Numbered from the stretch's first letter, positions 42,476-59,373 are shown. The stretch is 64,000 nucleotides of DNA from Dethiosulfatarculus sandiegensis (GCF_000931935.2 NZ_AZAC01000078.1:62001-126000); one strand, 5' to 3'. A program made the numbers and translations. The notes: generated by a model from the letters alone, not told the origin.

Positions 42476-44566
42476 CTATTCAAATCCATCCAAACCTTCT
42501 TCAATTATTGATTCCGGTGTTTTTTCTTTTTGGGCAATCGCCATTTTAGAAACACTTTTAAAATCCGCCCGAGATTGAGAATAGGACATATCCGCGGCTA
42601 CTGTTTCGCCGAGCACCTTGAACTGCCCCATCTGGCTGCGCAACTCCTCGGCCGCAGAAGTCTGGTTCTCGCTGGCCGCGGCGGCCTCTTCCACCAAGGC
42701 GGCGTTCTGCTGAACCGCGTTATCCATCTGAGTTATGGCCTCGTTGATCTCCTCCGCCCCTTGGGCCTGTTCTCTGCTGCTTGCCGATATTTCCCTGATG
42801 GATTGGGCCATGACCTCTGAATTATCGATCATGGTTTTTAAAAGTTCGCCGCTTTCTTCCACCATCTTATTGCCCTGCTCCACCTTGGTTACACTATCGG
42901 TGATCAGGGTTTGAATCTCCTTGGCTGCATCAGCGGAGCGTCCGGCCAGGTTGCGCACCTCACCGGCCACCACGGCAAAACCGCGTCCCGATTCCCCGGC
43001 CCGGGCTGCCTCCACAGCCGCATTCAGGGCAAGTAAATTGGTCTGAAAGGCAATTTCATTGACCACACCAATAATTTTACTAATTTTATGACTGCTTTCC
43101 TTGACCTCGTTCATGGCCGCCACAGCGTGGGCTACGGCCTTGTCCCCCTGCTGAGCCGTGGTCACCGCCTCTTTGGCCAGGCGGTCGGCTTTCTCCGAAT
43201 TTTCCGCATTCTGGCGCACACTGGCGGTCATCTCTTCCATTGCCGAGGCGGTTTCTTCTATGGCGCTGGCCTGGGTCTGGGTCCTCTCGCTCAAATCCTG
43301 ATTGCCCTGGCTGATCTGATTGGCCGCTTCAGCCACATTGCGGGCTGCCTGCATCACCTCGCGAAACGTGTCGGAAAGCCTGGCCCGCATGGTCTCCACC
43401 CCTTTCAGCATGGTCCCCAGTTCATCATTTCCCGCCCGATCCATATCCGGGACAGTAAAGGCGAAATCTCCCTCGGAGACACGCGCCACTGCCCCCTGGG
43501 TTATCCGCAAGGGTTTGGTAATGGCCTTGGTGATCCAAAAAGCAATAATTATTCCCAGGATAAGGGCGGCCAGAGCCACAATACTGACCAGTATTTGCGT
43601 TTTCTCCGCGCTTTTTAGCATTACCTCATCACTCATGATGTAGCGCTTTGTTTCAGCTCTCACCTGGTGCAGAAGATCCTGGAGTTTTTTGAGATTGGGC
43701 CTAGTTTTGTGGTTGAATATTTCAAGAGCCTTGGCATAGGCCTCTTGCAGCTCGTTTTCGGCTTCTATTGCCTTGTTCAGTCCTCTTTTTATACCGGCCA
43801 GGGCGGGCATGGTGATTTGTTGAAACACCTCCTGGGCTTCATTTATCCTTCCTTGCCTGATAAGGGACTCTATGGTGGCGGCGGAACCGTGCATGGTCTG
43901 ATGGTCCTTTTCCATGCCTTTCAAGGCCTTGGCCAAGGCAGGAAAAGAGGCCACCATTTTTTTGGTTGCCGGTTTGGCTAAAAAACGCCCCATAAAACAT
44001 TTTTCAGGGTCCAGTTGCACCCCCAGGGTAAAATCCGGCCTGGGGCGCGAATCATTATCCCGGGCAACCCGATTGAGTTTTATCAGGACATTCTTAGCCC
44101 AATCCAGGTGGCCGGCCATGATGCTCCAAAGGTCACTGCGCAGGCCTGGATGGTTTTGCCTGAAAACCTTTTTAATCTGAGCAGCCGATTCATGCAGCGC
44201 CCTGTGAGGCTCTTGCATGGCTGCCAGAATGGGGGCCAAAGAAGGGACCTGTTCCGCAGCCTTTCTGCGTTCGGAGCCATGATACCATTTTCCAAAAGCG
44301 CACTTTTTGGGATCAACCTGAATGTTGATCTCCGTTATGTTGGGATCGTTTAAAAAGGCATTCAGCTTGCTTGCCCAGTTCATATGATCTATTTCTTTTT
44401 GGGCCAGATTGCCGTCCAGGCGATTGCCTTCTATCACCTCTTTTCCGTTTGCTACAATGCCCTCTATACCCAAAAAGGTCATTACACCGGCAACGGCAAG
44501 CAGAATAAGGACAACGCCGAATCCCCCACCAATTTTTTTACCGATGCCTATATCTTTTACGCTCAC
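42476..44566 (-). CDS. methyl-accepting chemotaxis protein with tandem periplasmic CZB domains
   Basis: About 696 residues. A membrane helix near residues 13-35 and another near 322-344 bracket the sensor, which holds two chemoreceptor zinc-binding (CZB) units. In numbering from an ATG three codons upstream, unit 1 has HMNW at 64, CAFGKWY at 92 and HRALH at 124-128; unit 2 has HLDW at 156, CFMGRFL at 193 and HQTMH at 225-229. A HAMP and the MCP hairpin tip ([19 protein letters not shown]) follow. GTG at 44566 sits 9 nt after GGAAAGG; the ATG at 44575 overlaps that site. Likely senses zinc or an oxidant such as hypochlorite. Confidence 0.88.
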
Positions 44567-45151
44567 TTGGAACATCCTTTCCCGAACATCTAACCAACTT
44601 TAACTCAAGATAATTCGCTACGCATGAAACAGCTGTGGGACAAGCATGCATAGTAATCATTGCTGGGCAAAAAAGGCGAGTCAATATATTTTCCCAAAAA
44701 AGAAAACCATATACCCCTTGCCTTTAAATCAGGCCGCAAAATACTTATCTCAGCTTAATTGCAAACAAAACACCCTTTCAAAAGAGGAGCGCCCTGGGAA
44801 GGGTGTCAACCTAGTGGTACCACAACTCACCCCAGGTCTTAAACATTTTTCCCAGATTATAAAAAAGGGCGGCAAAATGGACCGCATATCCAATCACATA
44901 AAATAACAAAGAAACTAAGACTTACAAAAAGAAATATAAAGACGTAAAAGGAGTAGAATTATTAGCATTAATCCCATCCAAGCTGAGAGCCCCACTCCAG
45001 AAGTCCATTCGCCCGGCAATTGAAGTCCAGGGTAACTTCCGCGAAAAATCCAAAATACATAATTAAAACCGCTATTTTGCGAGCGAGTTGGGTATAATTT
45101 TTTTTTAAGGGCAAAGCTTGACACAGATTCAAAAGCGCCATATGCTTCACA
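44567..45151. other. intergenic region without gene
   Basis: About 585 bp. An open frame at 44646-44906 has no ribosome site or family resemblance. GTGGTACCAC (about 44811-44820) is a 10-bp palindrome resembling FadR/PdhR-type half-sites (TGGT/ACCA). Confidence 0.4.
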
Positions 45152-47072: not shown

Positions 47073-47109
47073 AAAACAAGCAGGGTCTTTAAGCCCCTGC
47101 TTGTTTTTC
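47073..47109. terminator. bidirectional terminator between panB and the ten-gene operon
   Basis: AAAACAAGCAGGG (47073-47085) pairs with CCCTGCTTGTTTT (47095-47107). T runs on both strands serve panB (+) and the ThiF-like gene (-). Confidence 0.9.
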
Positions 47110-47126: not shown

Positions 47127-47927
47127 CTACTTACTCACATCCAAGATACTCAGGTCCAAGGTGAATAGATCCAAAGTCACGAACCTGGGGGCAAAGACCG
47201 CAATCCTGGGGGCCAGATCCGTTCCCTGCAAAAGGTGAATGACAATCTCGTTTCCGACCAGAAGCCCGGCCTGCCCTGCGCCGCCTGCCAGGGTGGCGAG
47301 TTTTCCGGTTTCGTCATAATGCCTTTTAAGCCTTTGCACCATGGTCTGGTCAAACAAATCCGTGATCAAAGAAGGCATGATCTGGGTTTTGGGTGATTTC
47401 TCCTGAACCTTCTTCCAAAACTCATCCGGCTTCATTCCCCAGGGGTCATGGTTAACCATAATAGCCCCAAACCCCATAGCGCCACAGGTGAAGATAGGTA
47501 TCCCCAACTGGGCCGCTATCTTGCTGGACTCCTCCTTGGTCTCCCTGTCTTTTTCCAGGTCCATGGCCCCCAGATAAACGTCGGTCCCTCTCATGAAGTC
47601 TTCCACGTTATCCAGGTTCAAACCTTCGGGAAAAAGATTAAGCTCCACCTCGGGATTAATCTCCCTGGCCCACTGGGCATAGACATCCAGCTTGGGCTTG
47701 CCCATGGTATGGCCCAGGGCCGCCCATTGCCGATTCATATCCGGAGGGTCGAAGATTCCATTTTCAGCCAAATTGAAACGCTGAACCCCGCTGCGCACCA
47801 GGGTCAGAAAGGCGGCTCCGCCCACTCCCCCCAGACCTGCCACAGCCACCAAAGGCCGGGACAAGGCGGTAAGGCCTCTTTCCCCCAGAAATCCCCTGGT
47901 GCGGGCCCTGAAGTCACTTTGGCTCAT
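47127..47927 (-). CDS. ThiF/MoeB/HesA-family E1-like adenylyltransferase
   Basis: 266 residues. The nucleotide-binding loop is GLGGVGGAAF (about residues 31-40) and the E1-type arginine motif is DMNRQW. No CxxC zinc pairs are seen, which separates it from MoeB and ThiF proper and places it with orphan E1-like enzymes that activate a carboxylate or small carrier protein. ATG at 47927 overlaps the aminotransferase stop (ATGA). It is the last gene of the ten-gene operon. Its substrate is unknown. Confidence 0.8.
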   Translation of the reverse strand: MSQSDFRARTRGFLGERGLTALSRPLVAVAGLGGVGGAAFLTLVRSGVQRFNLAENGIFDPPDMNRQWAALGHTMGKPKLDVYAQWAREINPEVELNLFPEGLNLDNVEDFMRGTDVYLGAMDLEKDRETKEESSKIAAQLGIPIFTCGAMGFGAIMVNHDPWGMKPDEFWKKVQEKSPKTQIMPSLITDLFDQTMVQRLKRHYDETGKLATLAGGAGQAGLLVGNEIVIHLLQGTDLAPRIAVFAPRFVTLDLFTLDLSILDVSK

Positions 47928-49045
47928 TTTCTTGCTCCTTTGTCCAGAATGCGGCCCAGTCCCCGGCCAAAGGCCTCCATGGCCTCCATGCCCGAAATAC
48001 TGAGCCTTATCCAATTGGGAAAACGAAATCCAGTCATGGTTCTCACCATGACGCCTTGGGTCATAAGCTTGCGATAGGCCAGGCTGTCGCTCATGGGCAG
48101 CTTGATCATGGCGTAATTTCCCCCTCCACTCAAGTAAGGCAAGCCCAGGCGATTAAGAACCTGAAAAAGAAATTCCTTGCCCTGTTTCACCATTTCCCTG
48201 GTCCGATGGATATGGCCCTCATCCGGCAAGGCGGCCAGGGCGGCCGCCTGGGCCAGGATGTTAACCGAGTAGACCACACAGGTGCGCCTGATAACCTCCA
48301 CCACTTCCAGGGAACCGGCCAAATAGCCTATGCGCAGGCCGGCCAGGGCATAGGCCTTGGAAAAAGTGCGGAAAACCACCAGGTTGGGGTACTCGTCCAA
48401 AAGCTTCATACCGTCCGGATAGCCCGGTTCATCCATGAATTCAAAATAGGCCTCGTCCACAACCACGACCCGCTCAGGCCCCACTGCATCCAAAAAGGCC
48501 CTTAAGCGGGACTCGCTCCACCAGGTTCCGGTGGGGTTATTGGGGTTGCAGACAAACAAAACCTTGGTTTGCTCGTCCATGGCCTCGAGCATGGCCCGAT
48601 CATCAAAGGCCTGGTCTTTAAGGGGGATCAGCCTGGCGCTGAGGCCTGAAAATTCAGCCACCCATTCATAAACCGCAAAGGTCTTGTCAGCGGTTACGAT
48701 ATTGTCGCCGCTTGCGCAAAATGCCTTGATAACAAAGGAAATAACCTCTGTAGCCCCGTTGCCGACCAGAAACTGGTCCTCATGAAGCCCAAATCTTTGA
48801 GCCAGGGCCAGGCGCAGGTGGTAACTGTCTCCAGAAGGATAAATGGAAGCCTGTTCCTGAGGAAATTCCTCGATCACTTTACGGGCGGCCGCAGGTGGCC
48901 CTAAGGCGTTTTCATTATTATTCATTCGGAAAAGATGATGAACGCCGTAATATCTTTTAAGCACATCATCCGGCTTGCTTGGGATATAGGCCTCGAATCC
49001 CTTGATATATTCCGGAACCAGCCGATCCAGGTTCACCGTGTTCAT
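47924..49045 (-). CDS. PLP-dependent aminotransferase, HisC-like
   Basis: 373 residues of the class I/II aminotransferase fold. NNNENALGPP and NPNNPTGTWW are substrate and cofactor loops, VVDEAYFEF holds the Asp that binds the pyridine nitrogen, and FSKAYALAGLRIGY holds the Schiff-base lysine. Closest in style to histidinol-phosphate or aromatic aminotransferases, but no his genes are near. Overlaps both neighbours by ATGA, which suggests a role in the operon's own pathway. Confidence 0.87.
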   Translation of the reverse strand: MNTVNLDRLVPEYIKGFEAYIPSKPDDVLKRYYGVHHLFRMNNNENALGPPAAARKVIEEFPQEQASIYPSGDSYHLRLALAQRFGLHEDQFLVGNGATEVISFVIKAFCASGDNIVTADKTFAVYEWVAEFSGLSARLIPLKDQAFDDRAMLEAMDEQTKVLFVCNPNNPTGTWWSESRLRAFLDAVGPERVVVVDEAYFEFMDEPGYPDGMKLLDEYPNLVVFRTFSKAYALAGLRIGYLAGSLEVVEVIRRTCVVYSVNILAQAAALAALPDEGHIHRTREMVKQGKEFLFQVLNRLGLPYLSGGGNYAMIKLPMSDSLAYRKLMTQGVMVRTMTGFRFPNWIRLSISGMEAMEAFGRGLGRILDKGARK

Positions 49046-50355
49046 GATTCACTCAACACCCGCTGGAAAAACAGAATATCTCCTTTACCCACATGGGGCA
49101 TGACAAACCTGGGGGAAAAATCAAGTTCCGCCAGGGCCGGATAAAAACCCGCCTGCCAGGAGCGGCCCAGATCCATTTCGAAAAAGATATGGCCTATTTT
49201 CTGCTGTTTGAAAAGGGCAACATGCCGGGTGAGGTTTTCTTTCACATCCTTGCCGTCCCGCACCGGATAAAGGGTGGCAAACCCCTGGCCGCGGGAAAGG
49301 TCCGCGGCCAGGACTGATTCATTGGGGCGATTTTCACCCTGATCTGAAACCAGCCGCACCTCTCTGGGCAGGAAAAGCCGATGATATTCCTTTTGCAAAA
49401 GCCCTTCCAGATCGGGATGAGCCCAGATAACCTCTCCCGGATCTTCAGTGAGTTGTCTGAAAAAGGCCTCCATTTCCATGAAAGAACCGTCCGGCTTTTG
49501 CAGGCTGTAATTACCCAGGGATTCAAAATGTTCTTTGGGCAACTCCGGGGTGGGCAAACGGTGCATTATGCCGCCGGCCTTGGTGCGGGCCAAAAGCCCC
49601 AGGCAATGGTTGACCAGCTCCTCAGCCATTGGCATGGGTTTCTTTTGGCCAAACACATAGGGGCCAAAACAGATCACTGTTTTTTCCTCAACCCACCGCC
49701 AGGCCATGCCGCCACCCACGCTGCCCGCCCGGTCCAGGGCCAAGGACACCTGGAACTCTCCCCCGGCCACCATATCGGCCAGCTTGCCCGGATAGCCGAA
49801 AGCAGGCGGATAAAACACGGAATCATATTCCCGGGCCAAAAGGCTTGAGAAAAACTTGATCTCCTCTTTCTCCGCCAGCCGGATATTGTAAGCATCTAAA
49901 TTTTTCAGAGCTATTTTGCCGCCTGCCTTGGGTTGGGGATAAGCCTTTTCCTTGATCAGGCTCAAGGTGATGCCTTTATCCTGAAAACGGCTCAAACGGA
50001 AACGATCCACGCTGCGGGCGGCTATGATCAACCCCATTTCATCCAGGCCGGTCTGATCATCGAGCCTAACCTTTGAGGTGAGGTTAAAGGCGGCCATATT
50101 GAAATCCCGGGCCGTGAACTTGAGATCCACCTGTACGTAATAAATCCTGTTTTCACAGCTTATCTCAAGGGCCTGCTCTTTGCGGCCCAGGCCGCAGAGA
50201 TAGGCAAAGACCTCTTCCGTGGCCAGGGTCAGGGCCAGGGCCTGTGGTTTGGCCAGGCCAAAGGCCAGGGAGGCCTGTTCCACAAAACCGGTTGCCACCG
50301 GTAAAAAGCCAGTCTCAACCGGCAGGGTTAAATAAGCCTTTTGAGGTTCAGTCAT
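49042..50355 (-). CDS. HATPase_c_2-like / GNAT-like fusion protein
   Basis: 437 residues. The first 130 or so resemble an anti-sigma-kinase-type ATPase (TLATEEVFAYLCGLG as N-box, GLDEMGLIIAARSVDRF near the G-box). The remainder looks like a GNAT acyltransferase-related fold (FFSSLLAREYDSVFYPP, SVGGGMAWRWVEEK). Its C-terminal part, with FEMDLGRSWQAGFYPALAEL and GDILFFQR, resembles the end of the GNAT protein encoded at 51321-52331. The function of such fusions is unknown to me. Coupled to the aminotransferase by ATGA. Confidence 0.6.
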   Translation of the reverse strand: MTEPQKAYLTLPVETGFLPVATGFVEQASLAFGLAKPQALALTLATEEVFAYLCGLGRKEQALEISCENRIYYVQVDLKFTARDFNMAAFNLTSKVRLDDQTGLDEMGLIIAARSVDRFRLSRFQDKGITLSLIKEKAYPQPKAGGKIALKNLDAYNIRLAEKEEIKFFSSLLAREYDSVFYPPAFGYPGKLADMVAGGEFQVSLALDRAGSVGGGMAWRWVEEKTVICFGPYVFGQKKPMPMAEELVNHCLGLLARTKAGGIMHRLPTPELPKEHFESLGNYSLQKPDGSFMEMEAFFRQLTEDPGEVIWAHPDLEGLLQKEYHRLFLPREVRLVSDQGENRPNESVLAADLSRGQGFATLYPVRDGKDVKENLTRHVALFKQQKIGHIFFEMDLGRSWQAGFYPALAELDFSPRFVMPHVGKGDILFFQRVLSES

Positions 50356-50373
50356 TTTTTTTAAATCTCTTTC

Positions 50374-51309
50374 CTAAAAACCAAAGGCCTGTTCAAATCC
50401 GTTCCTTATCAGCCGCTTAAGGTCCTTTTCAGAGACCTGCATTTCATTGTGCACCAAGTCCAGCTCGCGGTTCAAAGAAGTCTTGAAAAAAGCGGGATCA
50501 TCCGTGTTTAAAACCACCTTGACTCCCTTTTGCAATAACTGCGGCAAGGGATGATCGGAAATATCCCCCACAGCCCCCAAAAGCAGATTGCTGGTGGGGG
50601 CCATCTCCAGACACACGCCTGTCTTAATCAGGGTTTCGATCACCTTTTCGTCGTTTATGGCGCTTAAACCGTGGCCTATGCGATGTGGCTTTAATAATCT
50701 CAGGGTCTCAGCCATCTGGGAGGCAGGGCTGAACTCTCCGGCATGGGCTACTGTCTTGAGTCCCATGGAACGGGCTTTGGCAAAGATATCCGCCCTGGGG
50801 GCGATATCACCTTTGCCCTCCTTGCCTGCCAGGTCTATTCCCAAGACCCGATCCCATTTATATTTTTCTATCAACTCAAGGGTCTTGAAGCCCGCTTCCC
50901 TGTCCAGGCCCCTGGGCAGGTTGAACAAAAGCCTCACCCTGACCTGGCGCCCGGCCTCGGCCTCCTTGAAACCTGCCTCAAGGCCCTGTTTTATGGCCTC
51001 AAAGTGCCCACCATTGACCAAATGCAGATAAGGCATAAAAAAGGCTTCGGTGTAGATGATGTTCTGCGATGCCTGGCGGTCGGTAAAATCCAGGGCCAGC
51101 CGGTAATAGTCTTCTTCGGTGGTCAACAGCCCCAAGACATGCATTAAGCATTGGTTGAACCCATCGAAATCCCGAAAATCGTAAAAATCCTCCGCCACCT
51201 GAGGCAACCCCTTTTTATGGGCCAGGCGATTCAGAGTTTGCGGAAAGACGCTGCCCTCCAGATGGATATGCAGTTCCGCCTTGGGTTCGGTGTGGCACCA
51301 GTCTGGCAT
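50374..51309 (-). CDS. adenosine/adenine deaminase family protein
   Basis: 311 residues with the complete family active site: ELHIHLEGS (His14, His16), VAHAGEF, HRIGHGLSA, PTSNLLLG and NTDDPAFF. It deaminates adenosine, adenine or a modified adenine nucleoside in the cytoplasm. It is embedded in the molybdenum hydroxylase operon, 11 bp after the GNAT gene. Together with a hydroxylase this could process a purine, though the aminotransferase and ThiF-like genes do not fit simple purine breakdown. Confidence 0.9.
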   Translation of the reverse strand: MPDWCHTEPKAELHIHLEGSVFPQTLNRLAHKKGLPQVAEDFYDFRDFDGFNQCLMHVLGLLTTEEDYYRLALDFTDRQASQNIIYTEAFFMPYLHLVNGGHFEAIKQGLEAGFKEAEAGRQVRVRLLFNLPRGLDREAGFKTLELIEKYKWDRVLGIDLAGKEGKGDIAPRADIFAKARSMGLKTVAHAGEFSPASQMAETLRLLKPHRIGHGLSAINDEKVIETLIKTGVCLEMAPTSNLLLGAVGDISDHPLPQLLQKGVKVVLNTDDPAFFKTSLNRELDLVHNEMQVSEKDLKRLIRNGFEQAFGF

Positions 51310-51320
51310 GGATCTTTACC

Positions 51321-52331
51321 TTACTTAACGGTTTCCCATTGTTCCTTGACCATCTTGCAAATCTGTTCGGACCTGACGGAATACAAATTGATTCCCTGCC
51401 AGTTTGGCTCGGTCATTATCTTTTGCATCAAAATTCCGTCATGACCAAACCAGCCGGGCAAAACCCCGCCGCAAAAATAGCCCTGATCACTCAACACCCG
51501 GGCGCCCCATCCCACAGTGTCATGCTCAAGCCTAAGCCAACATTGCATTACCTTTCCGCCTCGTTCCCTTACACCTGATTCCACGGCATGAAGGCGGTCG
51601 GGCAGATCAGCCCCGGCCTCCCACAGGGTCAAACGGTTCACCTGGGCAAAATCAAAATAAACTTGCTCCAGCCTGGATTCCCGGCTCTTGACCGGCTTCA
51701 CCCTCACTGTAATCAATTTTCTCGGCAGATCAGTGCCCCGGTAGATATCTCTTAGAAAGCCATCCAGGTGTTCCGGCAGGTAAACTTCTTTCTCAGTTTT
51801 CGGAAAATGCTTGAACAATAAAAGAGCGCTCACCCTGCCCTCCGCGCTCTTTTCCTTGGCATAGGCCGCAGCCGGCATGAGATCCACCTCCAGGGCGGTC
51901 TCCTCCATCCCCACATTAAGGCTGATCTTTTGGGTGTAGACGTGGTTGGTGACCGCCTCACCGAAAATAGTCTCAAACTCGGTAACCCTGCTCAAATTCT
52001 GAGTCAAAAAAAACATGAGCCGCTCGGACAGGCCTTTTTTTCGGTACTCCACCAGGGTCAATCCAACCCCGGTTTCATAAACCTTCTCATGGGGAGCGGA
52101 ACGGTAACAAGCCAAAAAGGACACCACCCGGCCTTGAGGCAGCACGGCGACTGCCGGGATAATTTCCTTCTTTTCAAAGGCTTTGATCAGCTCCGGCGGA
52201 TTGTAATAGGTCCTTATGGGATACCCGTCTCCGTAAACTTCCCTGAAAAGCAGGGCCACACCTTCGGCATCAGCCGGTTCAAAAAGCCTAATTATGGGTT
52301 CAGAATCAATTTTGGGCTGATTTTGAGTCAT
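51321..52331 (-). CDS. GNAT-family N-acetyltransferase with extra C-terminal domain
   Basis: 336 residues. An N-terminal GNAT domain spans about 12-160 (VALLFREVYGDGYP, VGLTLVEYRKKGLSERLM as the acyl-CoA loop). A second domain ends in EHDTVGWGARVLSDQGYF and HDGILMQKI, and it resembles the C-terminus of the HATPase-GNAT fusion in the same operon. ATG at 52331 overlaps the SGNH hydrolase stop (ATGA); a start 10 codons upstream is less likely. Acceptor unknown. Confidence 0.78.
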   Translation of the reverse strand: MTQNQPKIDSEPIIRLFEPADAEGVALLFREVYGDGYPIRTYYNPPELIKAFEKKEIIPAVAVLPQGRVVSFLACYRSAPHEKVYETGVGLTLVEYRKKGLSERLMFFLTQNLSRVTEFETIFGEAVTNHVYTQKISLNVGMEETALEVDLMPAAAYAKEKSAEGRVSALLLFKHFPKTEKEVYLPEHLDGFLRDIYRGTDLPRKLITVRVKPVKSRESRLEQVYFDFAQVNRLTLWEAGADLPDRLHAVESGVRERGGKVMQCWLRLEHDTVGWGARVLSDQGYFCGGVLPGWFGHDGILMQKIMTEPNWQGINLYSVRSEQICKMVKEQWETVK

Positions 52332-53425
52332 TGTTTCATCACCTTTTTCTCTTGCCACCACCCCAGGCGCTCAACCTGATCAAACAGGGTCCTGGCAAAA
52401 TAATCATGGCCTTGGGCGCTGAAATGGACCACATCCACGTAAAATTTGGCCCTCTTAGGGTTTTTCCAAACTTCTTGGGCCAGATTAACAAAGGGAGCGT
52501 CCAACTGTAAGGCCAATTCATCTCTTAATCTTTGGATATACTCAAACTGATATCCGGCCCACCCGTCATAGAACTCACGCCAGTTATTCTGCAACAACTC
52601 CATGGTTTTGGCCTCATAACGGGTCATACTCGGACTATAGGCTGGGTTCAGGCTGACAAAGGCCACCTTGGTCCCCAGGGAGCGGGCATCTTCCAAAATT
52701 GCCTTTTGATTATCGAAGATACTGGTCAGGGTGCGATCCCATTGAAAATTGTCGTCAACTCTTTTGAATTTGGGTCTTTTGGTGATTTTATTCCGGCCCA
52801 GGGAGCAGTACAGGCATGAGCGGTGCAAAATTTTCTCAAGCCTGCTTGATTTTTTCTCCAGTTTCAGAATGAATTCCCATGGCCAGCTCAAGCCGGGCCG
52901 CCAGGTGGAGCCCAGGGCATAGGACTGGGATATTTCATTGCCCCCCACTCGGAGCAACAGAATGTCAGGCTTTATCTCGCGCCACTTCTTTTGCCACATG
53001 GCCCGGTATTGCACCACGTTGTAGCCCGGCACCGAGGCGTTTATCACCTCCCAGTCGGAAAGCCCTTTTTCATCGAGCATCTGCTTTAGCCTGATGCTCC
53101 AGAGGTCCTTTTCCAGGGGCAATTTGGCCCCGAAAAACTCAGACTCCCCCATGAGCATTATGCGTTTGGATTTGCCCAAAGGCAGGGGTTCGGGCCCGCG
53201 AATCCCCAGAGAGTTAATATGCACCTGGGGAGAAGAAAAATTCGGTTTAAGGGTAAAGTAAAAGGGGTCAGGAGCCTTTTCCATGAAACCGGTATAAGGG
53301 TATTCTCCGATCACCCTGCTTCTAAAGGTCAATCCATAGTAAAGCCTATGCCACAGCCTTGATCCCGCTTCCAAAACAGGCAGAGCGGCCAATGCGCCAT
53401 AACCAAGCCAGGGGCCAATATTCAT
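52328..53425 (-). CDS. SGNH/GDSL-type hydrolase, membrane anchored
   Basis: 365 residues. An N-terminal hydrophobic segment (about 4-20) probably anchors or exports it. SGNH blocks are MGESEFFG (nucleophile Ser), INASVPGY, RVGGNEIS and DVVHFSAQGH (catalytic Asp-His). Members are esterases or O-acetyl-ester hydrolases on lipids, sugars or peptides. Coupled to the MFS gene upstream and the GNAT gene downstream by ATGA overlaps. Confidence 0.85.
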   Translation of the reverse strand: MNIGPWLGYGALAALPVLEAGSRLWHRLYYGLTFRSRVIGEYPYTGFMEKAPDPFYFTLKPNFSSPQVHINSLGIRGPEPLPLGKSKRIMLMGESEFFGAKLPLEKDLWSIRLKQMLDEKGLSDWEVINASVPGYNVVQYRAMWQKKWREIKPDILLLRVGGNEISQSYALGSTWRPGLSWPWEFILKLEKKSSRLEKILHRSCLYCSLGRNKITKRPKFKRVDDNFQWDRTLTSIFDNQKAILEDARSLGTKVAFVSLNPAYSPSMTRYEAKTMELLQNNWREFYDGWAGYQFEYIQRLRDELALQLDAPFVNLAQEVWKNPKRAKFYVDVVHFSAQGHDYFARTLFDQVERLGWWQEKKVMKQ

Positions 53426-54594
53426 CAGATATCCTCTTTAGGCATGAATAACAAAGAAACAAATCCAACCAGAGTGAGAACGCCGCAAAGATGGAATAGA
53501 AGCGAAAGTCCCCACGATGCGGCCACCAGGCCTCCCAAAAAAGGCCCGACAAAAAATCCAGCCTGCTGCATCTCCATCAGGAAATTGGTATTGATGCCCT
53601 TGAATTCAGGGGCGCTCAGCTCGAACATAATGGAATTTATCAAGGGAGAAGCCAGTCCCCAACCGGAGCCGAGAAATACCGCCAGTCCGAAAAACATAAC
53701 CTGCCCCTCCACCCTGCCCAAAAGAGGCAAACATATGCTTAAAAGTCCCAGGGCTGCGGCAAAAACCTTTTTTCTTCCCACTTTGTCGCAAAACGGCAAA
53801 ATCAAAATGCGGGAAGCCACCATACTCAGCGCCACAAAGCTGAAAAACAGTCCGGCCCTGGTCAGGCCCTTTTGCTCGGCAAATGCCTTTATGAAATAAA
53901 AAACAGGGGCATAGCCAAGAAAGATGTAAAATTGAATACTGAGCAGAATCAAAACCGGCCTTGATTTTAAATTCCGCCACACCGCCTTTGCCCCAGGCCT
54001 TTGGGGAGTGACTTTTTCGGGCGATTGACTTTTCTTGGGCCTGGCAAGCCAAAGCAGGGGAAAGCCTAAAACCATCACCAGGGCAACCCAATTCAACACC
54101 TTGGGGAAGTCGCTGGGGCTTTGCATGACAACCCCCAAAAGGGGAGGAACCACAGCATAGGGCAGGAGGTTGATATTCATCATGAAGCCAAATGCGTTCT
54201 GGGACTGGCCTTGGGGAATGAAGACCATAATCAGGGCGGTGAAGGAGGTTACCAAGAGCACATGTCCCAGCCCGTGGATCACTCTTACCAGCAACAGCCC
54301 CGGAAAAGTATGGGCGAAACCATAAGAGAGGAGGGCTGCGATGAGCATTCCGCAGCCCACGGTCATGTATCTCCTGGCATTGTCCGGATGCAGAAAAGGA
54401 GTTATAAATGGCCGCACCAACAGGGAGACAAATGAAAACGCCCCGATAATCAAGCCAAACCATTTTTGATCGATCCCCAAGGTGGAGAGATAGGTGTAGA
54501 GCCCGAAAAAGACGGCCATATTACAAAAGGCTAAAAAGAAAATGCCGTTTAAGGCCAGAAACTCCCTGGTGAAGTATGAAGGCACGCGAGGCAT
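53425..54594 (-). CDS. MFS transporter
   Basis: 389 residues with about twelve membrane helices. The cytoplasmic loop LVRPFITPFLHPDNARRYM and CDKVGRKKVFAAALG are MFS landmarks. The set resembles sugar/drug efflux-type MFS proteins. It lies 58 bp after the FAD subunit gene and is coupled to the SGNH gene. Probably imports the substrate or exports the product of the operon's pathway. Confidence 0.88.
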   Translation of the reverse strand: MPRVPSYFTREFLALNGIFFLAFCNMAVFFGLYTYLSTLGIDQKWFGLIIGAFSFVSLLVRPFITPFLHPDNARRYMTVGCGMLIAALLSYGFAHTFPGLLLVRVIHGLGHVLLVTSFTALIMVFIPQGQSQNAFGFMMNINLLPYAVVPPLLGVVMQSPSDFPKVLNWVALVMVLGFPLLWLARPKKSQSPEKVTPQRPGAKAVWRNLKSRPVLILLSIQFYIFLGYAPVFYFIKAFAEQKGLTRAGLFFSFVALSMVASRILILPFCDKVGRKKVFAAALGLLSICLPLLGRVEGQVMFFGLAVFLGSGWGLASPLINSIMFELSAPEFKGINTNFLMEMQQAGFFVGPFLGGLVAASWGLSLLFHLCGVLTLVGFVSLLFMPKEDI

Positions 54595-54652
54595 TCGATT
54601 CCTTTCCTGTGGTTCAAAATTACATATTCAAGGAAAAATCACCAGCCCCTTT

Positions 54653-55501
54653 TCAAACAAAAGCCTGCTTATGGGAGGGTAACTCCAGAAGCCGCAACAA
54701 AAGCCTGCCAGCCAACAGGCGGCGATACTCGGCAGACGCCCTGAGATCGCTTATGGGACTGACCTCGCCCGCAGCCAACTCGGCGGCCTCGGATAAGATC
54801 TCTTGTCCAAAGGGCTTGCCCTGTAAAAAGCGCTCCACCTTAGGAGAGGTGACCACAGTAGGACCTACGCTACCCCAGGCCAGACGGGCTTTTTGAATAA
54901 TTCCGTCGGAACCGAGTTTAAACCCGGCCGCCAGGCTGACTAAAGAGATGGCCAAGGCCTTTCTTTGCCCCACCTTTTCAAAATGTTCCAAATCAAACCC
55001 TGTTGGAGCCTTGACCCACACGGTCTTTAAAACCTCAAGCTCACCCAGCCCGGTTGCGCCCGGCCCTTTGATGAAATCGATGAGTTTCAGGCGGCGGCCC
55101 TGTTCCGGACCAACCAGCTCCAGCTCTGCATCCAGCACATAAAGCGGAGGCAGAGTGTCTGCCGCCGGTGAGGCGGTTATGATATTGCCGCCGATGGTTG
55201 CCATATTGCGTATGGGCGGTGAACCCAGCAAGGCCAAAGCCCGGGCCAAAAGAGGGAGCTTTCCCATCACCACAGGGTTGGCCAACAGTTCACTGGGCGT
55301 GCATGCCCCGCCGAGTCCAATCCAGCCGTCTTGATTGAGCACCTCTTTTAATTCAGCCACCCTCTCAAGGCAAATCAGGTCTCTTTTGCGGTCATCCGCA
55401 ATCAGAAAATCCGTTCCTCCGGCATATATCCCGGCCCGGGGGCTTTTTCGCCGGGCGCTCCACACCTGCTCCATATTTTCGGGAAGATAAAAAGCACTCA
55501 T
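54653..55501 (-). CDS. molybdenum hydroxylase FAD subunit (CoxM/XdhB-like)
   Basis: 282 residues of the FAD-binding medium chain of xanthine dehydrogenase/CO dehydrogenase-type enzymes. AGGTDFL near residue 27 binds FAD phosphates, and TIGGNIITASPAADTLP near 103 is the second FAD loop. It overlaps the 2Fe-2S gene (ATGA). Passes electrons from the iron-sulfur subunit to an acceptor. Confidence 0.93.
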   Translation of the reverse strand: MSAFYLPENMEQVWSARRKSPRAGIYAGGTDFLIADDRKRDLICLERVAELKEVLNQDGWIGLGGACTPSELLANPVVMGKLPLLARALALLGSPPIRNMATIGGNIITASPAADTLPPLYVLDAELELVGPEQGRRLKLIDFIKGPGATGLGELEVLKTVWVKAPTGFDLEHFEKVGQRKALAISLVSLAAGFKLGSDGIIQKARLAWGSVGPTVVTSPKVERFLQGKPFGQEILSEAAELAAGEVSPISDLRASAEYRRLLAGRLLLRLLELPSHKQAFV

Positions 55502-55974
55502 AAAACAGCCCCTTTCTTAAGCCGCTTTTGAGCCGCCTCTATGGCCTCCACAATCTTGATATAGCCTGTGCAACGACAGATATTGCCGCTGATGCCTTTT
55601 TTAATCTCGTTCTCATCCGCATCCGGCCTGTTTTTTAAAAGGGCGGCCCCGGCCATAAGCATTCCCGGGGTGCAGAAGCCGCATTGTACAGCTCCCCTGG
55701 CCACAAACTCTTCCTGCAGGGGATGCAGTCCGTTTGGAGGAGCCAGCCCCTCTATGGTGGTGACTTCTCTCCCCTGCAACTGGCCGGCCAGCATGAGGCA
55801 GGAAACAAGCTGCCTGCCGTCAACCAGGATGCTGCAAGCCCCACACTCGCCGGAGCCGCAGGCCTCCTTGACACCGGTCAATTCCAGTTCACGGCGCAAA
55901 AGGTCGATCACCCTGGTTCCGGGGTCCGCCTCCAAGGTCAGGGGTCTGCCGTTTAAAACGAATTCAAGCTTCAC
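55498..55974 (-). CDS. molybdenum hydroxylase 2Fe-2S subunit (CoxS-like)
   Basis: 158 residues with both [2Fe-2S] clusters of the family. The plant-type N-terminal cluster is in ACGSGECGACSILVDG plus a later Cys, and the C-terminal helical cluster is in CGFCTPGM and GNICRCTGY. Overlaps the large-subunit gene and the FAD gene by ATGA, so all three are made together. Confidence 0.96.
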   Translation of the reverse strand: MKLEFVLNGRPLTLEADPGTRVIDLLRRELELTGVKEACGSGECGACSILVDGRQLVSCLMLAGQLQGREVTTIEGLAPPNGLHPLQEEFVARGAVQCGFCTPGMLMAGAALLKNRPDADENEIKKGISGNICRCTGYIKIVEAIEAAQKRLKKGAVL

Positions 55975-58274
55975 TTTTCCTCCCCTGCTGCACCGGCCGT
56001 GGACAAGGCATTCAACACCCTTTCACCGGTGAGCGGCGCCTGCATCACCCGCACTCCGCAGGCATCGGCCAGGCCGTTGGCCACCGCGGGCAAAGGTCCG
56101 CATATGGGGAGTTCACCCATCCCCTTCATGCCGTAGGGCCCGGAATCTTCATGGGTCTCGACAGCTTTGGAATAAATCACGGGCACATCAAGGCTGGTCG
56201 GCAGAATATAAGTGGAAAAATCCCTGGAAAGCACCTGCCCCTTGTGCAGCAGAAAGTCCTCGCAAAGCCCGTATCCCAATCCCTGGGCAATTCCGCCCTG
56301 GATCTGCTGTTCAAAGATCTGGGGGTTAATCACCCGGCCGCTGTCTGTGACTGCCAGATAAGAGGCCACCTCAATATGGCCGGTTATCTGATCCACCTCA
56401 ATCAGGGCCAGGTGCGCCCCATAGGAAAACAGCCTGTGCCCCATGCCAAATCCCTTGATTTCAAGGCTGCCGCCTTCTTTTGCCTCTGGGGCGACCGGGG
56501 CCTTGAAATAGCCTGTGGCGGTAAGTTCGGATTTATTCGGCATGCGGGCCAGGTCGGCCAGGGAAACCTCCCAGCCCGAGGGCAGGTGCCGCACGGTTCG
56601 GGGCAAAAGGGCAAAGTCATCTTCCCGGTCCTGGCTTGCGAAAACCATGGCCGCCTTTTGCTGGATCAGCTTTTTCAACCTTTCGGCGGCTTTTATAAGG
56701 GCATTGCCGAATATATAGGTGGTGCGGCTGGCCGAGGCTGAACCGGAAGGCAAACAAAGCTCCGTATCGGGCAACACCAGCTCCAGATCAGCCGCATCCT
56801 GATTAAGAATATCGCCCGCCATCTGCAGATAGGTGGAGGCATTGCCCTGCCCCATATCCACAATGCCTGAATAGATCTTGAACTTTCCCTCTCCCGTCAA
56901 TTCTATCTTGGCTGTGGCATAATCCGGCACCTTGGCCCCAAACCCCACTGAATGGAGCACACAGGCCAGGCCCTTGCCCCTGGCCCTGAAAGGCGGGGAC
57001 TTTTTCTTCCAGTCCTCAGCCTGCAAATACAAAGGATGATCGGCCAGGGTGTGCAAGCATTGGGCTATGCCGGTAGAGGTGGTTAAGGTGATGCCCAGGG
57101 AGTTTTTATCGCCCCTTTTAAGGGCGTTTCGCCTGCGGATTTCCAGAGGCTCCAGGCCCAGGCGGGCGGCGAGCATATCCATCATCTGTTCCATGGCAAA
57201 GGCGGCCTGAGGCGCGCCAAAACCACGAAAAGGTCCGCCGACCGGATTATTGGTATAGACCGCTTTGCCGGATATGCTGGTGTTTAAAACCCGGTAAGGA
57301 CCGGCGGCGCATTCCATGCACTGCCCCAGGACCTCGGGGCCCAGATTGGCATAGGCCCCGTTATCCATAATTATTTCGCAGACCAAGGCCTTTAAGCTGC
57401 CGTCGGCGTCAGCGCCGAGTCGATATTTAAGCCTCCCGGCCAGGCGTTTGGTGCCGGCCAGAAAACTTTCCCGCCGGTCCCAAACCATGATAACCGGCCG
57501 GTTGGAGGCCTTGAGCGCTGCCAGGGCCAGGAGGCATTGCACCGTGGCCCCGTCCTTGCCCCCGAAACCACCGCCCATGGCAGGGGCCTTCACCCGAATG
57601 GAAAACGGATCCAGCCCCAGGGCCTGGCCTATCTCCAGGCGATCCCGAAAAGGAGCCTGGGTGGAGACACTCATCTCAAGGCGGCCGTTTTCATCCAGCC
57701 TGGCCACCCCGCACTCGGTCTCCATAAAGGCGTGTTCCTGACGCGGCACCTCAAAATCACCCTCAACCACCGTCTGACAATCATCCAGGGCAGCCGCACC
57801 TCGACCCAGAATCTGAGTGGCATGGATGATAAGGTTGCCGGATTCATTTTGTGGGTGCACCAGGGGGGCTTTTGCCTCAAGGGCCGAGGCCGGGTCATAA
57901 ACCCCGGGCAATTCACGAAGCTCAAGGCTGATGAGCTCCAGGGCTTTTTTAAGGGTGGATTGGTCTTTGGCCAGCACCAAGGCCACAGGGTCGCCTGCAT
58001 AATGAATACGGTCCTGCGCCAATACCGGCTGATCCTTATGGATCACTCCCTGACGGTTTGGGCCCGGGACATCGGCGGCTGTGAGCACCGCCTCCACTCC
58101 CTCCAGGGCCTTGGCGCGCTCAATATTTACGGAAACAAGCTCGGCATGGCTCACTCCGGCCCGTTTGACTCCGGACCAAAGCATTCCGGGCGTGTAAAGA
58201 TCGGCTGAGTATTTTTCCTTGCCCAAGACCTTGGCCAGGGCATCCGCCCTTACCAGGGGGTCGCCTATCTCCAT
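55971..58274 (-). CDS. molybdenum hydroxylase large (Mo-binding) subunit
   Basis: 767 residues of the xanthine dehydrogenase/aldehyde oxidase family. PAMGGGFGGKDG and RGFGAPQAAF bind the molybdopterin, and GMKGMGE near the end holds the catalytic Glu (usually GxKGxGE). EHAFMETE is close to the xanthine-enzyme block EHFYLE. It acts on an aldehyde or N-heterocycle such as a purine; the adenosine deaminase in the operon favours a purine-like substrate. AAAGGA lies 8 nt before the ATG. First gene of the ten-gene operon. Confidence 0.92.
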   Translation of the reverse strand: MEIGDPLVRADALAKVLGKEKYSADLYTPGMLWSGVKRAGVSHAELVSVNIERAKALEGVEAVLTAADVPGPNRQGVIHKDQPVLAQDRIHYAGDPVALVLAKDQSTLKKALELISLELRELPGVYDPASALEAKAPLVHPQNESGNLIIHATQILGRGAAALDDCQTVVEGDFEVPRQEHAFMETECGVARLDENGRLEMSVSTQAPFRDRLEIGQALGLDPFSIRVKAPAMGGGFGGKDGATVQCLLALAALKASNRPVIMVWDRRESFLAGTKRLAGRLKYRLGADADGSLKALVCEIIMDNGAYANLGPEVLGQCMECAAGPYRVLNTSISGKAVYTNNPVGGPFRGFGAPQAAFAMEQMMDMLAARLGLEPLEIRRRNALKRGDKNSLGITLTTSTGIAQCLHTLADHPLYLQAEDWKKKSPPFRARGKGLACVLHSVGFGAKVPDYATAKIELTGEGKFKIYSGIVDMGQGNASTYLQMAGDILNQDAADLELVLPDTELCLPSGSASASRTTYIFGNALIKAAERLKKLIQQKAAMVFASQDREDDFALLPRTVRHLPSGWEVSLADLARMPNKSELTATGYFKAPVAPEAKEGGSLEIKGFGMGHRLFSYGAHLALIEVDQITGHIEVASYLAVTDSGRVINPQIFEQQIQGGIAQGLGYGLCEDFLLHKGQVLSRDFSTYILPTSLDVPVIYSKAVETHEDSGPYGMKGMGELPICGPLPAVANGLADACGVRVMQAPLTGERVLNALSTAGAAGEEK

Positions 58275-58587
58275 AGCCGCATTCCTTTATCAATTGAGTT
58301 TAATTAAATCGCCGCCCAGGATAAAAACATGTTTTTTATGAAAAATATCTACATTATCAAATTGTTATAACACATCTTGCCAAATCAGTAGAGGTCTTAA
58401 ACCCCAAAGAAATCAATTTAAAAAGTTACCTGAGATTGTCTGTTCATCCAAGGATTGAAATAAAACAACCTGTTAGCACAACGGCTCAGCAGATCGACGA
58501 AACCACAAGGCCGCCATAAGGCGAACCTTATCGCGGCCAGGGCTATCAGGCTTAAATAAACCTGACAAGAAAAATTGTAATGACTTG
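58275..58587. other. intergenic region upstream of the ten-gene operon
   Basis: About 310 bp, AT-rich near 58300-58380, where the operon promoter is likely. The TetR-type palindrome found at 58783 and 59419 is not repeated here, so the operon is probably not under that regulator. Confidence 0.45.
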
Positions 58588-58755
58588 CTAAAGTTTCAAA
58601 AGCGCCAACAGATCGCAAGGGAAAAGGTCATAGGCAAAAAAATCAAGCACCCAAACCCCTCCCCTTCCACTGTATAAGATATCAATGCCAAGCAAGGCTG
58701 CGGCCAAGGCCATACCCACAAAGCAACCGATTGTAAGTTTTAAGCAAAGATCCAT
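58588..58755 (-). CDS. 55-residue predicted membrane protein
   Basis: A small gene with a strong ribosome binding site (GAGGGGAG directly before the ATG at 58755). It encodes 55 residues with one hydrophobic helix (about residues 7-27, KLTIGCFVGMALAAALLGI) and a hydrophobic second half ending ALLKL. It follows the tetR gene by 54 bp. A promoter-like pair and a TetR-type palindrome lie in between, so it is probably a regulated target of that repressor. I recognise no family. Confidence 0.6.
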   Translation of the reverse strand: MDLCLKLTIGCFVGMALAAALLGIDILYSGRGGVWVLDFFAYDLFPCDLLALLKL

Positions 58756-58782
58756 TTCTCCCCTCACTTGTTTTCAACTGAT

Positions 58783-58802
58783 CGGAATGAATATTCATTC
58801 CG
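58783..58802. promoter_or_regulatory. TetR operator before the small membrane protein
   Basis: CGGAATGAATATTCATTCCG is a perfect 20-bp palindrome. It matches the operator before tetR itself in 16 central-symmetric outer positions (CGGAATGA...TCATTCCG) and lies just after the -10 box. Confidence 0.85.
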
Positions 58803-58831
58803 AAAATATTCACCGTCTTACCGCCTGCCAA
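58803..58831 (-). promoter_or_regulatory. promoter of the small membrane protein, inside the tetR 3' end
   Basis: On the minus strand TTGGCA (58826-58831), a 17-nt spacer and TATTTT (58803-58808), abutting the operator. The transcription start would fall inside the palindrome. Confidence 0.55.
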
Positions 58832-59373
58832 CACATCTCCTCCACCTGAGACATGTTTTCCTGGTTGTACTCCAAAAAACCGCCAATAAAACAATCTATC
58901 ATTGAACTAAAGGAACCATAGGCAACCGCAGCTATAAGCTTGGGTGTAGTATCGCGAAATATCTCGTTTTTTATGCCTTCTTCAAAAATTTCAAGTAATC
59001 TATCCTGGACATTTTCAATCAAAGCCATACTGGCTGAATCAAGATAAGCCCCATGATGATGGGACTCGATAAAAATAAAAGCGGTTGGATTATTCATGGC
59101 CGCATCAGCCATGGCCAACCAAAGACTCCTGAACCTGGAGCGCAGGGCCTGGCTCGAGTCCACACTCTGAAGTGGCTTCAGGTAGAGTTCGCACTTCCAG
59201 TAAGTATAGAGTTGATTTATCAACTCTTCCTTACCCTTGAAATAGCGATATATGGTGCCCGCCCCCACCTTGGCCTTTTTGGCAATCATGGGAACCGGAG
59301 TTCCGTAATAACCATACTGGGCGAAGAGCTCCAAGGCTGCCTCGAGTATGTCGTCCCTTTTACTCAAATCCAA
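58810..59373 (-). CDS. TetR/AcrR-family repressor
   Basis: 187 residues. The helix-turn-helix spans about 8-55 (ILEAALELFAQYGYYGTPVP, KVGAGTIYRYFKGKEELINQ). The ligand domain follows (MNNPTAFIFIESHHHGAYL). Its promoter overlaps a perfect palindrome that recurs before the small membrane protein, so it almost surely represses itself and that gene. Ligand unknown. Confidence 0.93.
   Translation of the reverse strand: MDLSKRDDILEAALELFAQYGYYGTPVPMIAKKAKVGAGTIYRYFKGKEELINQLYTYWKCELYLKPLQSVDSSQALRSRFRSLWLAMADAAMNNPTAFIFIESHHHGAYLDSASMALIENVQDRLLEIFEEGIKNEIFRDTTPKLIAAVAYGSFSSMIDCFIGGFLEYNQENMSQVEEMCWQAVRR

Follow-up and report, generated by a model that had tools for sequence, protein, structure and literature searches.

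A widespread gene cluster centred on an RsbW-like/GNAT fusion protein and a HisC-like aminotransferase, with a possible role in small-molecule biosynthesis and export

Layout of the operon

Ten open-reading frames, all verified, occupy the minus strand of the window (the whole 64 kb stretch of DNA that was analysed) from position 58274 down to 47127, and their protein families were assigned using Pfam and NCBIfam. The gene order, 5′ to 3′, is moL, moS, moM, MFS, SGNH, GNATx, ADA, HATP_GNAT, HisC-like and E1, and these genes and their flanking features are as follows:

58810-59373, minus strand: TetR-like regulator gene, same strand as the operon (named by eye from its translation)
58275-58809, minus strand: upstream region of 535 bp from the TetR-like gene to moL, presumed promoter region (from the map of open-reading frames)
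55971-58274, minus strand: moL, molybdopterin-binding large subunit of a xanthine dehydrogenase/nicotinate dehydrogenase-type hydroxylase (Pfam MoCoBD_1/2, Ald_Xan_dh_C)
55498-55974, minus strand: moS, [2Fe-2S] subunit with a GTG start (Fer2, Fer2_2; both Cys clusters present)
54653-55501, minus strand: moM, FAD-binding subunit (FAD_binding_5, CO_deh_flav_C)
53425-54594, minus strand: MFS transporter, putative exporter (MFS_1)
52328-53425, minus strand: SGNH/GDSL hydrolase with a hydrophobic N-terminus, accessory (Lipase_GDSL_2)
51321-52331, minus strand: GNATx, tandem-GNAT protein (AlphaFold model, Foldseek matches to GNATs)
50374-51309, minus strand: ADA, adenosine-deaminase-family enzyme, accessory (above the TIGR01430 cut-off)
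49042-50355, minus strand: HATP_GNAT, predicted degenerate RsbW/SpoIIAB-like domain plus two GNAT domains, core gene (structure model, Foldseek)
47924-49045, minus strand: HisC-like PLP aminotransferase directly after HATP_GNAT, core gene (TIGR01141)
47127-47927, minus strand: E1/ThiF-like adenylating enzyme of a cluster-associated subfamily, accessory (ThiF)
47073-47107, minus strand: intrinsic terminator after E1, the last gene (predicted hairpin followed by T's)

The number of genes, their shared strand, their positions and their families all match those given earlier by a reading of the sequence alone, and its proposal that the ten genes form one operon-like unit is supported at the sequence level. 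The nine junctions comprise five 4-bp overlaps, a 1-bp overlap (MFS/SGNH) and gaps of 58 bp (moM/MFS), 11 bp (GNATx/ADA) and 18 bp (ADA/HATP_GNAT). That reading had most genes joined by ATGA, which is right in spirit: four of the overlaps are ATGA (moS/moM, SGNH/GNATx, HATP_GNAT/HisC and HisC/E1) whilst the fifth, at moL/moS, is GTGA. For E1, 47927 (MSQSDF) is the preferred start over that of a longer TTG open-reading frame. The single terminator expected at the operon end was recovered as a strong predicted hairpin with T's; the 64-nt stretch holding it has a folding energy of -27.7 kcal/mol (z -5.6, matched by none of 200 shuffled sequences), and the hairpin's 9-nt loop caused a generic terminator scan to miss it.

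The 535-bp upstream region contained no match to an Rfam family, sigma-70 sites upstream of moL were not above chance, and no distinctive short open-reading frame was found upstream of the operon. Downstream lies a convergent panB-like gene, named by eye from its translation. Elsewhere in the window, positions 42476-44575 encode a methyl-accepting chemotaxis-like protein, the sensor part of which holds two similar repeats that by eye resemble the CZB zinc-binding type.

Distribution and conserved core

HATP_GNAT was the search handle for all loci, and the frequencies given here are therefore those around HATP_GNAT. It is present in 12 of 60 relatives and in 52 of the 395 genomes of the phylum; an alignment-based contig scan returned 95 loci, of which 80 were kept. 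Desulfocarbo indianensis is a same-family relative of the genome that holds the window. In total 101 distinct HATP_GNAT loci were collected, and the gene families of the cluster were mapped over all fetched loci with profile HMMs. The cluster ranges across Desulfobacterota, Bacillota and some Gammaproteobacteria, with loci in Syntrophomonas, Pelotomaculum, Dethiobacter, Desulfosporosinus, Negativicutes and a Competibacteraceae MAG, and a homologue annotated "hypothetical protein" lies on a Thiodictyon plasmid. Lack of co-occurrence in other genomes had been named beforehand as one finding that would refute the operon reading, but the genes do co-occur, at around a hundred other loci and in other anaerobes. 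No published description of this cluster was found in the open-access literature searched, which does not by itself prove novelty.

A HisC-like gene directly follows HATP_GNAT in 95 of the 99 testable loci, and in four (L078, L085, L089 and L185) the two are a single open-reading frame of ~800-820 codons. Among the 43 well-flanked core loci, defined by at least 7 kb on either side and a HisC neighbour, moL was present in 32, GNATx in 32, an MFS gene in 26 and a MATE gene in 7. Across the HATP_GNAT loci the exporter gene was MFS in 49 and MATE in 10, with both together in none. The core of HATP_GNAT, HisC, a GNAT gene and an exporter is kept in clusters that have no local hydroxylase (L188, L040, L054, L152 and L153, for example), and the label "molybdenum hydroxylase operon" given by the sequence-only reading is thus not supported. 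Because the HATP_GNAT and HisC pair is nearly constant whilst the hydroxylase trio occurs in about three quarters of well-flanked loci, the hydroxylase is a common add-on and not the heart of the cluster.

The cluster genes co-vary in their pairwise distances (Mantel r 0.57-0.78, p 0.0005), a correlation to which shared species history contributes. The HATP_GNAT tree spreads Bacillota sequences over more than one position and joins those of Thiodictyon and Competibacteraceae as a pair inside a mostly Desulfomonile-type group; these placements suggest gene transfer, of which a tree by itself is no proof. "Myxococcota" labels in this tree derive from the submitters' titles for Deltaproteobacteria MAGs and were disregarded. 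Four loci (L020, L021 and L022 in genomes G015, G006 and G011, and L075 in a Desulfomonile MAG) carry HATP_GNAT with neither HisC nor other cluster genes nearby, and these are possible orphan or repurposed copies.

The two acyltransferase-fold proteins

The Pfam match of HATP_GNAT was weak (HATPase_c_2, E 8e-4). Its structure model (pLDDT 91.9) places an RsbW/SpoIIAB-like domain ahead of two GNAT domains, and Foldseek matched it to SpoIIAB (1til, E 1e-7) as well as to GNATs. The likeness to RsbW/SpoIIAB anti-sigma kinases lies in the N-terminal fold, but HATP_GNAT differs from these in carrying tandem GNAT domains and in its nucleotide site: only 6 of 62 homologues have Asn at position 51 of the N-box and the DxGxG motif is missing, whereas the RsbW proteins encoded separately in neighbouring modules invariably keep N50, D80/G82 and the GGxG motif. 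The N-terminal domain is thus predicted to be RsbW-like with its ATP-binding residues lost.

GNATx has no Pfam match, and its AlphaFold model (pLDDT 92.5) shows a predicted tandem-GNAT fold with Foldseek matches to GNATs. It aligns end-to-end with the GNAT part of HATP_GNAT over 273 columns (hhalign P 1e-4, with a probability of only 58%), and the two are probably paralogous. Both proteins share the predicted fold of GNAT acyltransferases but differ from them in their tandem arrangement and in having no Pfam GNAT match, and a sequence search of solved structures returned nothing credible for either. In GNATx the CoA motif is near-canonical (RKKGLS at 97, with R97 invariant). No conserved canonical motif (Q/RxxGxG/A) was found in the GNAT domains of HATP_GNAT in the homologue alignment, so this protein may not be an acetyl-CoA enzyme.

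The aminotransferase and the molybdenum hydroxylase

The HisC-like protein passes the histidinol-phosphate transaminase model TIGR01141 (285.5 against a cut-off of 276.6), and PLP-site residues and both C-terminal Arg are invariant among cluster members, as in HisC histidinol-phosphate aminotransferases. The cluster group differs from HisC in being locked to HATP_GNAT, its members from other clusters sharing 59-70% identity with the window protein. The best other HisC-like gene of the genome is only 34% identical and adjoins a cytidylate-kinase-like gene on contig C4. Passing the TIGR01141 cut-off counts against the biosynthetic reading set out below.

The hydroxylase trio has a complete set of Mo, FeS and FAD domains with the catalytic Glu present, and shares its three-subunit architecture and its active-site Glu and Glu/Arg positions with xanthine dehydrogenase, nicotinate dehydrogenase and 4-hydroxybenzoyl-CoA reductase. 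In moL, E185, R277 and E721 are invariant in 29 cluster homologues, with a KGMGE motif at the catalytic Glu, E721; its nearest relatives are nicotinate dehydrogenase, 4-hydroxybenzoyl-CoA reductase and PucD, and XdhC and MobA-like maturation genes are present in some clusters. The trio differs from the XDH family in its surrounding gene set and in scoring below every curated equivalog cut-off (moL: pucD 525 against 784, XdhA 469 against 780). That the best NCBIfam matches name xanthine dehydrogenase and adenosine deaminase would suit a variant of a purine degradation or XDH operon joined by unrelated passenger genes, but with every XDH cut-off failed, and HATP_GNAT and HisC more constant than the hydroxylase genes (a comparison biased by collecting the loci through HATP_GNAT), we consider this very unlikely and set the purine-breakdown reading aside on the model cut-offs and conservation pattern. 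The earlier judgement that the genes match neither purine breakdown nor a known pathway is supported. Two clusters that have no Mo-hydroxylase encode a flavin amine-oxidase-family protein after GNATx (L040:12455-13525 and L054:15296-16393), perhaps a replacement oxidase.

Accessory genes

The accessory enzymes differ between clusters, with ADA, SGNH and E1 each a minority module that recurs. ADA passes TIGR01430 (253 against 217) with its HxH, HAGE, GHG and TDDP residues intact, and three loci link it to the core: L036, L152 and L153, in the last two of which it lies on the same strand between HisC and MFS. SGNH is linked to the core in five loci (L018, L030, L032, L164 and L188).

The window E1 shares the adenylation motifs GxGGxG, NRQ and GKPK with ThiF/MoeB/PRK08223 E1-like enzymes but falls below the curated equivalog cut-offs (PRK08223 136 against 266, thiF and moeB models far below), and neither a conserved zinc CxxC in the protein nor a sulfur-carrier gene in the operon was found. 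Nine close homologues (256-300 bits) occur in 149 genomes of presumed Desulfovibrionaceae, a family placement suggested by Pseudodesulfovibrio-like content in L085, and are clearly apart from other ThiF proteins (~95-111 bits); among those read, eight have GNATx as a neighbour and six have HATP_GNAT and HisC. In L188, RsbW, STAS and SpoIIE genes are divergent from the order HATP-HisC-E1-MATE-SGNH-GNATx. The subfamily further differs from ThiF/MoeB/PRK08223 in its pairing, in the presumed Desulfovibrionaceae, with a WbuX-type PP-loop ATPase. Such an ATPase gene adjoins E1 and GNATx at L187:7805-9283, with equivalents in L150, L186, L189, L190 and L192, and suggests that the product undergoes amide or sulfur chemistry.

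As E1, ADA and SGNH each recur linked to the core, the window operon is the richest version of the cluster seen and not a random assembly. The rarity of these three genes among relatives is what a chance gathering of unrelated genes would predict, but even in distant genomes they recur alongside this core (ADA in 3, SGNH in 5 and E1 in 6-8 loci) and the window genes are joined by 4-bp overlaps; for the core, chance is refuted by recurrence across loci, and for the operon as a whole we find it scarcely credible. The sequence-only reading had proposed a modified nucleoside or aminoacyl metabolite as a candidate compound; since ADA and E1 are both minority modules, the product class is not definable from them.

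No signature enzyme of NRPS, PKS or RiPP pathways was found among the ten proteins with Pfam and NCBIfam. A RiPP reading, prompted by E1, was rejected: the operon leaves no space for a precursor gene, and a conserved zinc CxxC is absent. Anti-phage defence was also rejected, PADLOC having matched generic E1 and ADA domains only, as was a metallophore reading, the MFS match to CntE being weak (39 bits against a cut-off of 235) and no synthase being present.

A candidate biosynthesis-and-export pathway

Our best explanation, to which we give a probability of around one half, is that the operon belongs to a family of clusters for small-molecule biosynthesis and export, for which we infer the chemical steps, the direction of export and the control by a switch. 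The alternation of exporters, a core of an aminotransferase and acyltransferase-fold proteins, variable tailoring enzymes and a patchy spread point to a specialised-metabolite pathway with export, and such a spread is as expected of transferable specialised metabolism. The HisC-like aminotransferase would place an amino group onto a keto or aldehyde precursor, HATP_GNAT and GNATx would add an acyl or aminoacyl moiety to the aminated precursor, the Mo-hydroxylase (and in some species the deaminase, SGNH enzyme or E1) would tailor the product, and an MFS or MATE pump would export it. In many relatives, a STAS/RsbW/SpoIIE switch may gate the acyltransferase through the RsbW-like domain of HATP_GNAT.

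The sequence-only reading had left open whether the pathway makes or degrades its compound; we favour making, because the alternation of MFS and MATE points to product export and not substrate uptake, and degradation becomes the less likely half of that claim. In a catabolic operon, MFS would import a modified purine, nucleoside or N-heterocycle, which SGNH would deacylate, ADA deaminate and the Mo enzyme hydroxylate before transamination, yielding a carbon or nitrogen source. This draws on a hydroxylase of the xanthine dehydrogenase/nicotinate dehydrogenase type, an ADA-family enzyme whose catalytic residues are intact and a TetR-like regulator upstream, but core clusters occur without the Mo-hydroxylase and without ADA, MATE pumps stand in for MFS, the two acyltransferase-fold proteins that recur with the core better fit synthesis, and Pfam and NCBIfam revealed no enzyme for ring opening among the ten proteins; we regard it as unlikely.

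If the biosynthetic reading holds, a small-molecule pathway is widespread in syntrophic and sulfate-reducing anaerobes, with two unannotated acyltransferase-type proteins as its base, and the defined gene set could serve in finding the compound. The cluster is widely shared, its core enzymes are unannotated and a signalling switch is often paired with it, and the RsbW-like/GNAT fusion would offer a direct test case for partner-switch control of a biosynthetic enzyme.

The neighbouring partner-switch module

Intact STAS, RsbW and dCache-SpoIIE phosphatase genes, often with an NMT1/THI5-type (periplasmic) binding protein, adjoin many clusters: among the 43 well-flanked core loci, SpoIIE was present in 14, STAS in 15 and RsbW in 14. 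In a set of 15 genomes, the density of SpoIIE (55 domains over ~63 Mb) predicts ~0.3 occurrences within ~12 kb of HATP_GNAT; the number counted is 8 of the 15, although some of these genomes were already recognised carriers of the module at the time of selection. No partner-switch genes were found beside the window operon, the genome of which encodes SpoIIE elsewhere, and related switch pieces are likewise encoded elsewhere in three genomes (G003, which is D. indianensis, G275 and G159).

No sigma factor was found as a constant neighbour of the clusters, and in difference from known partner switches the output here would be an enzyme. An enzyme as STAS target is plausible given a review of STAS proteins with non-canonical targets (PMC8256260), amongst them Vibrio SypA, whose target is non-canonical and not known; the RsbW-like domain of HATP_GNAT is a plausible docking point for a STAS protein. 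The fusion of such a domain to GNATs, and the neighbouring STAS/RsbW/SpoIIE and NMT1-type genes, would also accord with a signalling role, in which the partner switch governs HATP_GNAT and GNATx as protein acyltransferases or as non-catalytic switches, and the metabolic genes serve to tune a cofactor or second messenger. However, the steady linkage to an aminotransferase, hydroxylase and exporter points to a small molecule, and we hold this role to be doubtful beside biosynthesis and export. Within the biosynthetic reading, one speculative and rather improbable extension is a self-sensing circuit, in which the exported product (or a related ligand) would be sensed by the periplasmic binding protein and SpoIIE receptor, and STAS/RsbW would act directly on the RsbW-like domain of HATP_GNAT, such that the partner switch would control a metabolite synthase and not a sigma factor.

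Three loci (L028, L031 and L105) carry LivG/LivM-like ABC transporter genes, not of the NMT1 type, upstream of HATP_GNAT; their status as true neighbours is unproven, and the transporter may import a precursor.
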